Shown here piece after piece: positions 8,126-29,120 of a DNA stretch of 64,000 nucleotides (positions are counted from its first letter, which is position 1; each line of letters starts with the position of its first letter). Under the pieces are notes generated by a model. The model worked only from the letters and a program-made list of their open reading frames with translations, was not told the DNA's origin and ran no database searches. The translations under genes and the position numbers were made by a program. The stretch covers positions 479,277 to 543,276 of the forward strand of contig MEUD01000001.1 of the NCBI GenBank assembly GCA_001771575.1, given 5' to 3'. The DNA comes from a candidate division WOR-1 bacterium RIFOXYB2_FULL_45_9. GTDB taxonomy: Bacteria; Margulisbacteria; WOR-1; O2-12-FULL-45-9; XYB2-FULL-48-7.

Positions 8126-10528
8126 TTATCGGTTAAACCCTCTTTTTCTTAGTTCGAGCGATCCAATAATCAGTCCGGTCGCCAGGGCGATAAGCGCGAG
8201 CAAAAGCGGATTGAGGGGGACCAATTGAAGGCGGGTGCTGATCTCCGGAACATAGAGCCCGACCAGCAGGGCCCCTATTGCCAGGACCATCCAGATATTG
8301 ATGACCTTATTATTAAAGATCCCCAGTTTATACAGGAGGAGACGATCTGACCTGGTGACGTAGGCTAAAAAGATGTGGGCAAAGATCCAGGCGGCAAACG
8401 CGGCGGTCTGGGTCTGGCTGACGCTGAATTTATTCAGCAAGGCAAAGAAGTAAACCGCCATGACCGCGGCAAACAGGACCACGCCCTTAAGTAAAATATC
8501 GGCGATGGTTTGGAGATCAAAGAGCTTCGCTTTTGGATCGCGCGGCTTGCGCGAATAAAGGCCCTTTTCCTTTGGTTCATAAACAAAACCGGCCGAAGCG
8601 GCCAGGTCCATAAAAAGTTCCAATAAAATTATCTGGATCGGGGCAAAAGGCATTGGAATGCCAAGGAGGACCGGAAGGAGAAAGATCAAGATCAGGGCGG
8701 TTTTTACCGACAAATAATATTTCACTCCTTTAAGGAGGTTGTCAAAGAACTTTCGACCTTCAAATATCCCCTGCGTAATAGTAATGTAATTATCGTCGGC
8801 CAGGACCACTTCGGCCGCTTCCCTGGCGACATCGGTCCCCCTGATCCCCATGGCGATGCCGATGTCGGCCCCGCTTAAAGCGAGCGCGTCGTTGATCCCG
8901 TCGCCGGTCACCGCGACGATCTCTTTTTCTCTTTGCAGAGCCTGGACGATCCGGTACTTGTGCTGAGGTGAAGTTCGGGCGAAGACCGAGATTTCCTTGA
9001 CGACGACCGCCAGCGCCTGGTCGCTCAATTTATCAAGCTCTTCTCCGGTCATGACCTTGGCCCCGCCGCTGATTATCCCAACCTGTTCGGCAATATAGGC
9101 GGCGGTCTCCGGATGGTCGCCGGTCACCATGATCGTCCTGATCCCGGCCGCGGCGGCAGACAAGATCGTCTCTTTGACCCCAGGCCGCGGAGGATCCTCA
9201 AAAGCGACCAGCCCGCCAAAATCAAGCCCGCTTTCCAAAGCGTCGAACCGCCGCTCGCTCTCGTCCAGCGCCAGCTTCCTGGAGGCGACCGCGATCACCC
9301 GGCGGCCCATCCGGGCCTGCTTTTCGAGCTCCCGCCTGATATCGTTATCAACCGCCCGGCAGGCGGCAAAGATCTCTTCCGGCGCGCCACTCATGAAGAG
9401 CTCTCTCCCCTCATGGCCGCCCCGGATCACGCTCCTGCTCTTGCGGCCGTTATTGAAATCGCGCTGGTTGACGATAACCCCGGAAAAAGGGCCAAGCTCC
9501 TCTCCCCGCCGTTTAATTTCCTGATCGAGCGGAGAAAGGGGGAATTCGGAAAGAGCGAGATAAGCGAGGCGAATCACTTTAGGATCGTCCGGATAGACAG
9601 CGGCGATCGACATTTTATTCTCGGTGATCGTCCCGGTCTTATCGGTGACGATAACGGTAGCGCTCCCCAGGGTCTCAGCCGCTTTGATCTTTTTAACCAA
9701 AAACTTCTTCCGCGACAAAGTATAGGCGCCAAGGCCAAGCACCATGGTGATAATGATCGGCAATTCTTCCGGGATGGTGGCAAACGCCAGCGAAAGCCCG
9801 GTCAGGAACATTGTCTTAAGATCTCCCCCCCGGAACCAGCCGATAATGGGGATGACGGTCGAAAAGAAAACCGCGACATAGACCAGCTCTCCGGCCAGCG
9901 TCTTCATCATCTGCTGAAGCGGGGTTTTGGGAGGACGGACCATTTTGGCGTCGGCGGCGATCCGGCCCAGCCTGGTGGCGCTTCCGGTGAGGGTCACGAC
10001 CGCCACTCCCTCGCCGTTGACGACCGTCGTCCCGGCATAGACCACATCACCCGCTCTTTTTTCGACCGGGAACGACTCTCCGGTCAGAGCTGATTCGTCA
10101 ACCTGCAAGCCGAGCGAACGCTCCACCCCGGCATCGGCCGGGACCCTGGCCCCAGTCGACAGGACCAAAACGTCGTCGGGAACAACCTCTTCGGAGCGGA
10201 CCTCAACGATCTGATCGTCGCGCCTGACCCTGGCCCGCGGAGCGGCAATTTTGGAAAGCGAGTCGATCGCTTTTTTCGCCCGGTATTCATTAATGACCTC
10301 GACCATGACCAGAAGGAAGATAACGATAAAAATGGTCACCGCGTCGGCTAGGTCACCCCAAATACTATAAAAAATACCGACCACGAGAAGGAGAAGGATC
10401 ATCGGTTCGGTCACTTCGTGCCTGGCGGTACCGAAAAAGCTGATCCGCGAGGGCTTAAAGATCTGGTTAGGTCCGAATTTTTTGAGGTTCGCCTTCGCTT
10501 GTTTCGCAGTTAAACTGCCGGGTTCCAT
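8126..10528 (-). CDS. P-type cation-transporting ATPase, P2 (Ca2+-like) class
   Basis: A P2-type ATPase of 800 residues when started at ATG 10528. It has a short N-terminal cation_ATPase_N segment, TGES (about 149-152), membrane motif IPEELP (about 252-257), phosphorylation site DKTGT (about 296-300), TGDHPETA and TGDGINDALAL hinge motifs, and a C-terminal block of helices. PEEL rather than PEGL is seen in bacterial PMR1-like pumps; Ca2+ or Mn2+ export is likely but the ion is not settled. An in-frame TTG at 10564 exists, but it forms part of an apparent -35 element whose TATAAT lies 7 nt before the ATG, so I favour a leaderless ATG start. Confidence 0.88.
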   Translation of the reverse strand: MEPGSLTAKQAKANLKKFGPNQIFKPSRISFFGTARHEVTEPMILLLLVVGIFYSIWGDLADAVTIFIVIFLLVMVEVINEYRAKKAIDSLSKIAAPRARVRRDDQIVEVRSEEVVPDDVLVLSTGARVPADAGVERSLGLQVDESALTGESFPVEKRAGDVVYAGTTVVNGEGVAVVTLTGSATRLGRIAADAKMVRPPKTPLQQMMKTLAGELVYVAVFFSTVIPIIGWFRGGDLKTMFLTGLSLAFATIPEELPIIITMVLGLGAYTLSRKKFLVKKIKAAETLGSATVIVTDKTGTITENKMSIAAVYPDDPKVIRLAYLALSEFPLSPLDQEIKRRGEELGPFSGVIVNQRDFNNGRKSRSVIRGGHEGRELFMSGAPEEIFAACRAVDNDIRRELEKQARMGRRVIAVASRKLALDESERRFDALESGLDFGGLVAFEDPPRPGVKETILSAAAAGIRTIMVTGDHPETAAYIAEQVGIISGGAKVMTGEELDKLSDQALAVVVKEISVFARTSPQHKYRIVQALQREKEIVAVTGDGINDALALSGADIGIAMGIRGTDVAREAAEVVLADDNYITITQGIFEGRKFFDNLLKGVKYYLSVKTALILIFLLPVLLGIPMPFAPIQIILLELFMDLAASAGFVYEPKEKGLYSRKPRDPKAKLFDLQTIADILLKGVVLFAAVMAVYFFALLNKFSVSQTQTAAFAAWIFAHIFLAYVTRSDRLLLYKLGIFNNKVINIWMVLAIGALLVGLYVPEISTRLQLVPLNPLLLALIALATGLIIGSLELRKRGFNR

Positions 10529-10607: not shown

Positions 10608-10620
10608 CCCAATATGCAAC

Positions 10621-10654
10621 GGAAACCTGCCCCGATCCGATCGGGGCGGTTTCC
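10621..10654 (+). promoter_or_regulatory. strong hairpin in the 5' leader of the GyrI-like gene
   Basis: The arms 10621-10637 and 10639-10654 pair over 16 bp with one bulged T (10628). The centre is a self-complementary GATC-C-GATC. No T-run follows, so it is not an obvious terminator. The SD (GGGAGG, 10673-10678) lies 19 nt downstream. Confidence 0.55.
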
Positions 10655-10683
10655 TGGATTTAATGTATTAATGGGAGGTTTTT

Positions 10684-11244
10684 GTGAAAATACTTAAAAT
10701 TGTTCTTTGGGTAATTGCTCTTCTCACGGCGGCGCTGGTCATCTGGCTATATTACATGGGCTTTTTAGCCAATTTAGAGGTAGTGGAGCGGGATGCCGGC
10801 CCCTACACCCTGGTCTATGAAGATTATATCGGCCCTTACCAGAATACCGGATCGATCGTGCAAGCGGTTTACGATCGATTGGCCAAAGACGGGATCAAGC
10901 CGGCCAACGGTTTCGGCATTTATCTGGACGACCCGAGCAAAGTTAAAGCTTCCCAGCTCCGGAGCCAGGTCGGCTGTGTAATTACCGACAAAGAGCTCCC
11001 CGCTTTTTATCGGGTCGCCAGAAACTATAAGGTGATTGGCTGGAAAAAAGGGAAAGTGCTCGCTACTGAATTCCCGATCAGGAACAACCTCTCTTACATG
11101 CTCGGCCCGATCAAAGCCTACCCCGCCCTGATGAAACATATGGAAGCAAAAAAGATCACCAGCGACCAGATCGGTCTCTGCATGGAATATTACGACATGG
11201 CGGGGAGTAAGATTATTTTTATGTTTCAGAGGAAGGGGCGGTAG
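10684..11244 (+). CDS. membrane-anchored GyrI-like domain protein
   Basis: A 186-residue protein with one N-terminal helix (about 4-27, VLWVIALLTAALVIWLYYMG) followed by a GyrI/BacR-like small-molecule-binding fold. The fold shows as GPYTLVYEDYIGPYQ, later an IYLDDP segment and VGCVITDKE. GyrI-like domains bind varied small ligands. The membrane tether and absence of a DNA-binding domain suggest a sensor or sequestration role rather than transcription control (inference). The start is GTG with SD GGGAGG 5 nt upstream. The stop is TAG, followed at once by a purine-rich repeat. Confidence 0.7.
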   Translation: MKILKIVLWVIALLTAALVIWLYYMGFLANLEVVERDAGPYTLVYEDYIGPYQNTGSIVQAVYDRLAKDGIKPANGFGIYLDDPSKVKASQLRSQVGCVITDKELPAFYRVARNYKVIGWKKGKVLATEFPIRNNLSYMLGPIKAYPALMKHMEAKKITSDQIGLCMEYYDMAGSKIIFMFQRKGR

Positions 11245-11390
11245 GCAGAGGCAAAGGCAGAGGGCTCGGGCAAGGGCGGGACAAGGGAAACGGAAATACG
11301 GGACACGAGGTACAGGGACGGGAAGAGAAGGCCAAGACAGTAGAAAGGGCAAGGCAGGAGACAGAGGCAAAGGCGGGACGCGGGAAAGAA
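11245..11390 (+). repeat. G/A-rich degenerate repeat block A
   Basis: About 145 bases, nearly free of T, begin directly after a TAG stop. They consist of variants of GGCAAA, GGCAGA and GGCGGGA. Five G-triplets at 11262-11287 form a canonical quadruplex motif. It shares CGGGCAAGGGCGG with block B and GGAGACAGAGGCA with the 29-kb block. Confidence 0.75.
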
Positions 11391-11426
11391 ACCCTAACCC
11401 AGACTTTAATTAATGATCGAAATAAT

Positions 11427-11650
11427 TTTCAAAGCAGTGTAATCGAAGCATTCAATTTAATGATTCTAGGGAAACAAACAAAGCCCAAAAGATTTTGCTC
11501 GATCAATTAGGGCATTCACAAACGACACCCCATTTCCAAGGCTTTGCCACAATATAAGCTTAACAACAAAAATATGGTATGGATTGTCAGGATATTTTCA
11601 AGTCAAAGAAATTAATGACCTAGTAAATATGCCATACATTTCAAAGCAGT
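11427..11650. repeat. 12-bp direct repeat flanking the A+T-rich segment
   Basis: TTTCAAAGCAGT occurs at 11427-11438 and again at 11639-11650. Both copies are followed by three variable bases and ATCG. The copies are 212 bp apart and bracket the unidentified fragment. Confidence 0.5.
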
Positions 11651-11670
11651 TGGATCGCATTTTCGTCTAA
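11470..11670 (+). pseudogene. unidentified A+T-rich coding-like fragment without a start codon
   Basis: After a stop at 11467-11469, 66 codons remain open to TAA at 11668. The reading includes SPKDFARSIRAFTN and ends GYFQVKEINDLV...ISKQLDRIFV. The KDFAR start and the GY...EIN.L...ISKQL end vaguely recall the four-helix-bundle (S23/IVS) family, but the middle does not match. Another frame is open just upstream (about 11412-11508), so a frameshifted remnant is possible. It lies in an A+T-rich pocket between repeat blocks A and B, flanked by a direct repeat. A chance open frame remains quite possible. Confidence 0.25.
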
Positions 11671-11687
11671 GGAAACCGCGGCGCCTG

Positions 11688-11790
11688 TCCGCCATCTGTT
11701 TTGCCCTTTGTCCCGCCCTTGACTTGCCCTCTGTCTCGCCTTCTGTCTTGCCCTTTCTCCCGCCTTCTGCTCCGCCCTTGCCCGATCCCT
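11688..11790 (-). repeat. G/A-rich degenerate repeat block B
   Basis: Read on the minus strand, it starts immediately after the TAG stop of the 101-residue membrane protein. It is almost T-free and carries GGCGGGAGAAAGGGCAAG, an exact 18-mer also in block C, and CGGGCAAGGGCGG, also in block A. Confidence 0.75.
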
Positions 11791-12096
11791 CTACCCCACC
11801 ACTTTCCCCAATATTCCACCCAAAATAGCGGTCATAATGGTCATGGGAATGAGAGAAAAAGGCTCTTTCGCCCCTACTATTATATAGACCGGCAAAGCAA
11901 TGAGAAAAGCAACGAGAATCCCCTTCAATATAGGAAATATTCTCAACTCCGACGTTGAGATCAAAAAGCCAGCGACTACCCACATCGCGAAAGCCGATAG
12001 GTTCGCTTCCCAGCTCAACCCCTGCGCCACCATCGGAATAACATCGATCACTCCCGCAATCGCACCAAACAATAAGCCTTTAACTATTTTGTTCAT
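11791..12096 (-). CDS. small hydrophobic membrane protein, unrecognised
   Basis: 101 residues with about three hydrophobic segments: GLLFGAIAGVIDVIPMV, LSAFAMWVVAGFLIS and ILVAFLIALPVYIIVGA, plus a glycine-rich C-terminus IMTAILGGILGKVVG. I do not recognise a family. The ATG at 12096 follows the SD GGAGGATA. The frame is open further upstream only because the repeat block there lacks T, so the longer version starting in that block is probably not real. It follows the 221-residue anchored protein; stop is TAG. Confidence 0.65.
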   Translation of the reverse strand: MNKIVKGLLFGAIAGVIDVIPMVAQGLSWEANLSAFAMWVVAGFLISTSELRIFPILKGILVAFLIALPVYIIVGAKEPFSLIPMTIMTAILGGILGKVVG

Positions 12097-12225
12097 TATC
12101 CTCCCCTCCCTTTGCCTCGCCCTTGCCCCTACCTTTGCCTCTGCCTTTGCCTGTGCCATTTTTCCCGCCCTTGTCCCCGCCTTTTGCCTTGCCCTTTCTC
12201 CCGCCTTTGCCCAAGCCTTCTCTCC
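12097..12225 (-). repeat. G/A-rich degenerate repeat block C
   Basis: On the minus strand it runs from the TAG stop at 12228-12226 to the SD of the small membrane gene. It contains runs such as GGCAAAGGCAGAGGCAAAGG with roughly 6-nt periodicity, and shares the 18-mer GGCGGGAGAAAGGGCAAG with block B in the same phase relative to the preceding stop. Confidence 0.75.
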
Positions 12226-12891
12226 CTATTTAAACAACTTAATCTTAATCGTCTCGATCTTATGGCTCGCCGCGTGGGGCTTGTTGTCGGCAAAGAACTT
12301 CAGCTCAACCTCTTTCTTCCGGACCTTGACCCCCTGCGACAAAATGGTCCGGACCCGCTCGCTCCGGTCAAAATAATTGACCACTTCAATGTCCGTCCGG
12401 GTCCATTCAAACTCACTGATCCGCGGGTCGGAAGAGAGGAGCCCGTCATAAAGCCTGGTTACTCGGAAGACCCCAAAAATATACTTGATAACGATCGGAT
12501 GGGTCCCCCAATAGTCGGCCCCGATCTCCCCCCAGCTCGTCACGATCATCAGGTTCATGAGTCTTTCCTGCGCAAGATCGACGCTTTCTAAACGGAGCGG
12601 ACGAGGGTATCCCGCGCTTTTGGGAACAACGGGAGCATAGCGATAGACTAATTTTTGCCCGGCCGGCGTCACCCGGTAGATCGCCAGGAACGACCAGGGA
12701 ACAACACCGTCTTCAGCCGCCTGATAAGCGACAATATTGAGGCTCTCTTCGGTCGTCGAGACAAAGGCCTTCCGCTCAAAAACTATCCGGTATTTGAGCA
12801 TGTCGACCTCTCCTTTTGGCGCGTGCCCCCAAATAAGATAACCGGCAACTATGACCAGGACGCAAAGGATTAGGATCAACACTTTTTTCAT
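12226..12891 (-). CDS. membrane-anchored extracytoplasmic protein, unrecognised
   Basis: A 221-residue protein with one N-terminal hydrophobic segment (about 4-22, VLILILCVLVIVAGYLIW) and an otherwise soluble body, so it is probably anchored facing the periplasm. The body has alternating strand-like segments, for example YRIVFERKAFV and WSFLAIYRVTPAGQKLVYRY, and no cysteines that suggest metal sites. I recognise no domain. It shares a base with the TMEM175-like gene (TAATG) and is in the same operon. Stop is TAG, followed by repeat block C. Confidence 0.6.
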   Translation of the reverse strand: MKKVLILILCVLVIVAGYLIWGHAPKGEVDMLKYRIVFERKAFVSTTEESLNIVAYQAAEDGVVPWSFLAIYRVTPAGQKLVYRYAPVVPKSAGYPRPLRLESVDLAQERLMNLMIVTSWGEIGADYWGTHPIVIKYIFGVFRVTRLYDGLLSSDPRISEFEWTRTDIEVVNYFDRSERVRTILSQGVKVRKKEVELKFFADNKPHAASHKIETIKIKLFK

Positions 12892-29009: not shown

Positions 29010-29120
29010 GAACACTGCCTCTGTCTCCCTTTATTAACCGCGCAATTAATTGCGCGGTTAAATGAAAGTACGGGTTCCCTTCTTCCCTCTTCCCTTGCTT
29101 TCCCCTGATCCCTCTGTTAG
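29010..29120 (-). repeat. G/A-rich degenerate repeat, split block D
   Basis: Minus-strand purine tracts lie on both sides of the 28-bp palindrome: AGAGGGATCAGGGGAAAGC near 29115 and GGAGACAGAGGCA near 29020. The latter is an exact 13-mer of block A, and AGAGGGATC also occurs in block B. Unlike A-C it does not follow a recognisable stop codon. Confidence 0.5.
29034..29061. repeat. perfect 28-bp palindrome
   Basis: TTAACCGCGCAATT followed by its exact complement. It lies in the 309-base gap between divergent genes and shares TTAACCGCG with the hairpins at the uvrA and rmd stops. The rest of the gap holds the DUF5679 promoter, purine-rich tracts and a promoter for the next gene. Confidence 0.75.

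Follow-up and report, generated by a model that had tools for sequence, protein, structure and literature searches.

The purine-rich blocks A, B and C, which lie directly behind TAG stop codons in a Candidatus Saganbacteria (WOR-1) genome, are in our estimate, with roughly three chances in four, copies of a lineage-specific, dispersed and degenerate short tandem repeat that is kept at tolerant sites. The position after a stop is one of several landing places of this repeat, and not a new reading signal. The stretch of DNA analysed, 64,000 nucleotides long and called ‘the window’ here, is G000:C1:479277-543276 of a 1.67-Mb single-contig genome (G000, the host genome). Three relatives are referred to repeatedly: G001, a sister species of the same genus; G003, from another genus of the same family; and G004, a further relative. 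Genome statistics are based on pattern searches and on a 464-kb sample, which covers 28% of the genome and includes 341 confidently called genes with at least 90 nt of flank. Genes were called with a home-made hexamer finder, below the threshold of which gene B falls. Arrays were listed by combining a pattern search with a Markov model that had the blocks as its training set (null maximum 17.7 bits), and dispersal was assessed with a degenerate 18-nt pattern, the reversed pattern serving as control.

Block A (11236–11393, plus strand) is a degenerate purine array at the end of gene A (10684–11244, plus strand), which encodes 186 amino acids with no Pfam match and ends in TAG at its native C-terminus; orthologs in relatives stop within one or two codons of the same place, mostly with TAA. 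Counted from the stop codon, the block occupies 11245 to about 11393. It probably starts some bases upstream of the TAG (AAG|GGGCGGTAGGCAG), because the orthologous proteins end ..FK-VVR* and ..QVKK*. An orthologous array occurs in G001 (L032:7577-7669). Block A also holds ACGGGACACGAGGTAC-type words, which resemble a 15-nt array elsewhere in the genome. Next comes the remnant of a decayed SIR2-like gene (11394–11668, plus strand), identified by inspection from its match to an intact G001 gene (L032:7691-8629; SIR2_2, PF13289, E 1.5e-9). Block B (11676–11790, minus strand; period 12/24) follows the TAG of gene B (11791–12096, minus strand), which encodes a small membrane-type protein. To judge from the reading frames, gene B likely starts at the ATG at 12096 (MNKIVKG..); this start and the protein are conserved in G001, and the alternative ORF start at 12159 takes in part of block C. 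Block C (12099–12225, minus strand; period 12/24/36) fills the gap between gene C and gene B and ends in a Shine–Dalgarno-like word, GGAGG. Gene C (12226–12891, minus strand; 221 amino acids, no Pfam match) ends in TAG, and its C-terminus is conserved in G001.

Two further features of this neighbourhood can be recorded. The SIR2-like remnant is flanked by arrays in inverted orientation, and the SIR2-like gene is possibly an insertion into a palindromic array. A GGAAACC..GGTTTCC hairpin lies upstream of gene A in both sister species (at about 10620–10665 of the window); G001 has a second copy after its SIR2 gene (L032:8628-8662), and block B ends inside a half copy.

The original prediction, that the three blocks begin directly after TAG, are purine-rich and are nearly free of T, is borne out by the ORF list and by T counts: the first 110 nt of each block contain three or four T. 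Among the 341 confidently called genes of the 464-kb sample, only those before A and C have six T or fewer in the 90 nt after the stop, and so the after-stop feature is real and rare. The repeat unit is approximately 12 nt, RRRGGCRRGACA, with C spaced 5+7 or 6+6 and one strand nearly without T; tandem periodicity is strongest at 12, 24 and 36 in blocks B and C. The exact words said to be common to the blocks are, if anything, longer than claimed. In place of an 18-mer, B and C share a 20-mer (AAGGCGGGAGAAAGGGCAAG), and simulated B/C pairs share at most 17 nt (300 simulations per model, Markov order 0–3); A and B share a 14-mer, and A and C a 15-mer. The phase relative to the stop, held to be the same in B and C, is the same in A as well: each of the three blocks has its first GGC in phase 2. 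The proposed distant partner, a 13-mer (GGAGACAGAGGCA) at 29016 on the minus strand, does not belong here; it is an isolated, chance-like match among a few such 13-mers, with no array around it.

The repeat is dispersed. G000 contains about seven intergenic and five in-gene arrays. On the sense strand they follow TAG at blocks A, B and C and after lexA. Elsewhere, the array at L134 is directly beside a TAA of the other strand, the array at L136 lies between divergent genes, and so does a 15-nt relative of the repeat (L013:10858). Others are in frame within genes: in a UvrD-family helicase (L013), twice in an M13 peptidase (L135; the G001 ortholog, L143, also has two), in the N-terminus of a ThiD2/ThiE protein (L137) and, as the pyrimidine strand, in the signal peptide of a periplasmic binding protein (L030). 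Many of the G003 arrays are palindromic, with arms meeting at GGCGCC, between divergent or tandem genes; some (L140, L142) encode a membrane segment or a signal peptide, again from the pyrimidine strand. The 18-nt pattern matches 13 times in G000, 10 in G001 and 27 in G003, and in the other 71 genomes of the phylum it occurs about as often as its reversed control. The search for related blocks in the host genome and its relatives finds repeated hits only in its own genus and in one other genus of the family. In a collection of 84,980 species there are 49 matching stretches, and clear arrays come only from Saganbacteria contigs; public titles name the relatives with the same repeat Candidatus Saganbacteria. 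Of the explanations first offered, a ‘mobile low-complexity repeat’ is the one that these results support, at least in the sense of a dispersed repeat, with about a dozen loci in the host genome and further arrays in two related ones.

Wider sources were considered and set aside. Matches in other phyla occur once per stretch and are almost all under the array-score threshold, which one Lachnospiraceae stretch barely passes. The three viral matches are lone, with no array among them. An assembly artefact is unlikely, given orthologous arrays in two separate genomes.

Within proteins, the arrays can be seen as additions to conserved genes. The UvrD linker that carries the array is longer than in every relative aligned over the region, and both sister species have 12–16 extra amino acids at the second M13 site, compared with four relatives; in both cases the flanks are conserved. 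In every in-gene purine array, the phase mainly read is the one that gives alanine. In them, 23 of 37 alanine codons are GCA, against 6% genome-wide (p 2e-19); the repeat is therefore a DNA-level phenomenon and not a convergence of proteins. The pyrimidine strand supplies a signal peptide, MRNFGLCLALCLALCPA, that is missing in the sister species' ortholog; comparison of L030:9917-10744 with L216 shows that, in a periplasmic binding protein, the repeat encodes the signal peptide of G000 (GLCLALCLALCPA) and that the sister species has an unrelated one. We suggest, tentatively and at somewhat worse than even odds, that the repeat actively supplies protein segments: arrays would enter conserved genes in frame and soon give way to other arrays in sister lineages, with the purine strand giving Ala/Lys/Glu helical linkers and tails, and the pyrimidine strand signal peptides and membrane segments.

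Each array might instead have arisen where it stands, by pure local slippage or drift of base composition, the likenesses being convergent low complexity without common origin. The words are simple, and relatives bear other simple arrays at similar sites. We nevertheless regard this as very unlikely: the same 12-nt grammar recurs at about a dozen unrelated loci in two genera, the B–C 20-mer exceeds the Markov simulations, and the in-gene arrays use a codon, GCA, that is rare in the genome.

The placement of the arrays bears on whether the blocks are functional 3'-end elements, in which a purine arm, or a purine arm paired with a pyrimidine arm as a hairpin, would end or stabilise transcripts. 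Several arrays do lie on the sense strand directly behind stops, the palindromic G003 arrays form strong folds around GGCGCC (L036:1257-1483, −145 kcal/mol, z −9.9), and blocks A and B, inverted around the SIR2 remnant, pair with z −4.1. The GGGNATC repeats of Xanthomonas and Nostoc, moreover, are reported to occur preferentially near stops (within 50 bp) on the sense strand (PMC4692102). As a general rule, however, the ‘new 3'-end element’ of the original prediction finds no support, for arrays also occur in frame in genes, at gene starts and between divergent genes. Many are inside genes or upstream of starts, none matches an Rfam family above the gathering score, and block C lies between tandem genes, where termination would cut off gene B. 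This explanation is unlikely for the family, and individual arrays, especially the strong G003 hairpins, may have a transcript-end role. G-quadruplexes were also rejected as a common feature, 8 of the 13 arrays tested having no canonical G3N1-7 motif.

Arrays turn over rapidly, and the sites that hold them are shared with unrelated repeats. Compared with its G001 ortholog, array A has conserved ends, and G001 has 56 nt less inside (indels of 7 and 49 nt). The gap filled by block C is occupied in G001 by an unrelated REP-like repeat (CCCTCTCCC..GGGAGAGGG..GGGTGAGGG). G001 has REP-like copies at L032:8805-8887 and 9213-9305, one exactly at the stop of gene C and the other at the stop of gene B, where the copy supplies the stop codon. 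The UvrD linker contains a GGGATCAAGG repeat in G001 and GGGTAAGGGGTATGGGG in G004, an M13 linker in G003 contains AGCCGACAGCCGAA, and in G004 a GGGTAAC/GGGATAC palindrome comes after the lexA stop. Most arrays of the relatives are unrelated 7-nt ones: 257 kb of their sequence holds 18 arrays of period 7, where three order-2 simulations produced none. Given this slot sharing across relatives and the period-7 arrays, simple tandem arrays appear to fill and refill tolerant slots throughout the class, and the window's family is one local version of this habit.

What is odd about the after-stop arrays is the codon before them and their phase. TAG accounts for 7 of the 9 stops that have an array directly behind them, compared with a TAG usage of 20% (p 3e-4), and 7 of 8 such arrays have their first GGC in the alanine phase (p 0.003); both tests are post hoc and on small counts. 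In the tandem pairs examined (gene C–gene B, LexA–next gene in G001, and the L145 gene–next gene), the array and the gene behind it share the frame of the upstream gene. These are the signs that programmed or leaky TAG readthrough, adding Ala/Lys/Glu-rich tails or fusing neighbouring proteins, would leave. The open readthrough frames originally described hold for block C, which runs in frame into the next gene, and for block B (49 codons); that of block A extends only 32 codons to the next TAG. Conservation of such ‘readthrough tails’ as open frames is not found at gene A, gene C or LexA. The indels in array A change the frame of the gene A tail between the sister species, the gene C tail is replaced in G001 by the unrelated repeat, which has an in-frame TAA, and the LexA tail, open in one species, ends at a TAA in the other. 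TAG also terminates 60 of 297 ordinary genes. Anticodons CTA, TTA and TCA are absent among all 46 tRNAs typed, on which grounds readthrough by a TAG suppressor is rejected, and readthrough of any kind is extremely improbable here.

We return, then, to a dispersed repeat kept where it is tolerated. Its arrays are scattered over the genome, sit in frame in genes, change rapidly in length and share slots with other repeats. New arrays, we infer, would be seeded from other copies by gene conversion or template switching, after which slippage or unequal exchange would lengthen and shorten them, with selection filtering for T-free, in-frame tolerance. They would survive only at tolerated sites: very short gaps after stops or before starts, variable linkers, N-termini and signal peptides. 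Being without T, the purine strand rarely makes a stop codon; in its alanine phase it gives bland Ala/Lys/Glu/Gln/Arg helices, and the pyrimidine strand Leu/Ala/Cys/Phe hydrophobic stretches. Since the genome is about 92% coding, with a median intergenic gap of 52 bp, an intergenic array often touches a stop. Comparison with G001 suggests that the gap of block C was originally only about 10 nt (TAG-GGGGGGAGG-ATAATG); in so short a space, contact between an array and a stop is unavoidable. For the arrays we found neither a seeding mechanism nor a transposase, nor any proven target duplication.

The shared position and phase after TAG, singled out in the original prediction as needing explanation, are a real puzzle, and only partly explained. 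Passive tolerance alone fails to predict either the TAG excess or the alanine phase after stops. A G-leading array that entered after the TA of a stop could have created the TAG; at gene A, TAA is the usual end of the orthologs and the array seems to start a few bases before the TAG, which may therefore be array-derived. The TAG excess, the alanine phase and the next gene in the same frame would all follow from a constant left end (TA-GGGAAAGGCAGAGGC) or from selection against harmful readthrough.

Short tandemly repeated repetitive (STRR) sequences are known from filamentous cyanobacteria; they have a heptanucleotide unit and are mainly intergenic. The arrays of the window are, like these, degenerate short-unit tandem arrays at many loci of one genome. 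TAACTGA heptamer arrays occur in Beggiatoaceae, cyanobacteria and Bacteroidetes (PMC4679880). With both, the present family has in common short tandem arrays scattered over the genome, restriction to a lineage and no known mobility genes. It differs from the STRR heptamer in its unit of approximately 12 nt (5+7 or 6+6), purine-only on one strand, and in often being in frame inside genes; the STRR-like period of 7 is seen in other arrays of relatives in the class. STRR and TAACTGA arrays are mostly intergenic; of those in G000, about seven lie between genes and five within them. The GGGNATC repeats (PMC4692102) are similar in that the G-rich strand is the sense strand after stops in several of our arrays, and antisense upstream of starts in G003; they differ in unit, and our arrays are also present in coding regions. 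Rickettsia palindromic elements are repeat DNA found between genes and in frame inside unrelated genes, according to the account in PMC10969869 (citing Ogata 2000, 2002), and our arrays in the helicase, the peptidase, ThiD2/ThiE and the binding protein signal peptide are comparable. Those elements are conserved palindromes of about 150 bp with a conserved encoded peptide, whereas our arrays vary in length and sequence by site and species, and are palindromic only in G003. MITE/REP-type elements, finally, are likewise dispersed, non-coding and partly palindromic. The arrays differ from them in having no partner transposase, and appear to have no defined terminal inverted repeats; TA|GG and AT|GG recur at array edges, with no clean target site duplication. 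No description of this repeat family was found in the literature searched (Saganbacteria repeats; degenerate purine repeats after stops).

Short tandem repeats in bacteria tend to be regarded as clutter between genes. The family described here can be traced at the same orthologous sites in sister species, conserved genes included, and codon usage points to its origin at the DNA level. Two questions thereby become testable: by what means such arrays disperse when no transposase is known, and how frequently repeat DNA gives rise to new protein linkers and signal peptides. There is also a warning for annotation: in these genomes, repeats shape the ends and starts of ORFs, and apparent readthrough frames.

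Several other repeats accompany the arrays. Between divergent genes and upstream of the UvrD-family helicase, at L013:10871-11025 (G000:C1 about 90871-91025), GGGACAAGGGGATAC is repeated 10.3 times in a nearly perfect 15-nt tandem array that contains many G-quadruplex motifs. The arrays at L134 and L136 adjoin AAGTTTTT-N11-ACGATAA, upstream of small genes; this is a putative promoter resembling those of sigma-28 (FliA). In G003, the AAATTTCA motif beside several arrays proved to be a separate repeat of that genome and not an array terminus. A repeated motif of approximately 27 nt, often TATC-N15-17-AATTTCA, is present there on one outer flank of arrays, and elsewhere without arrays (sites at L034:8609, L036:302, L037:8320, L139:5197 and L034:14428).
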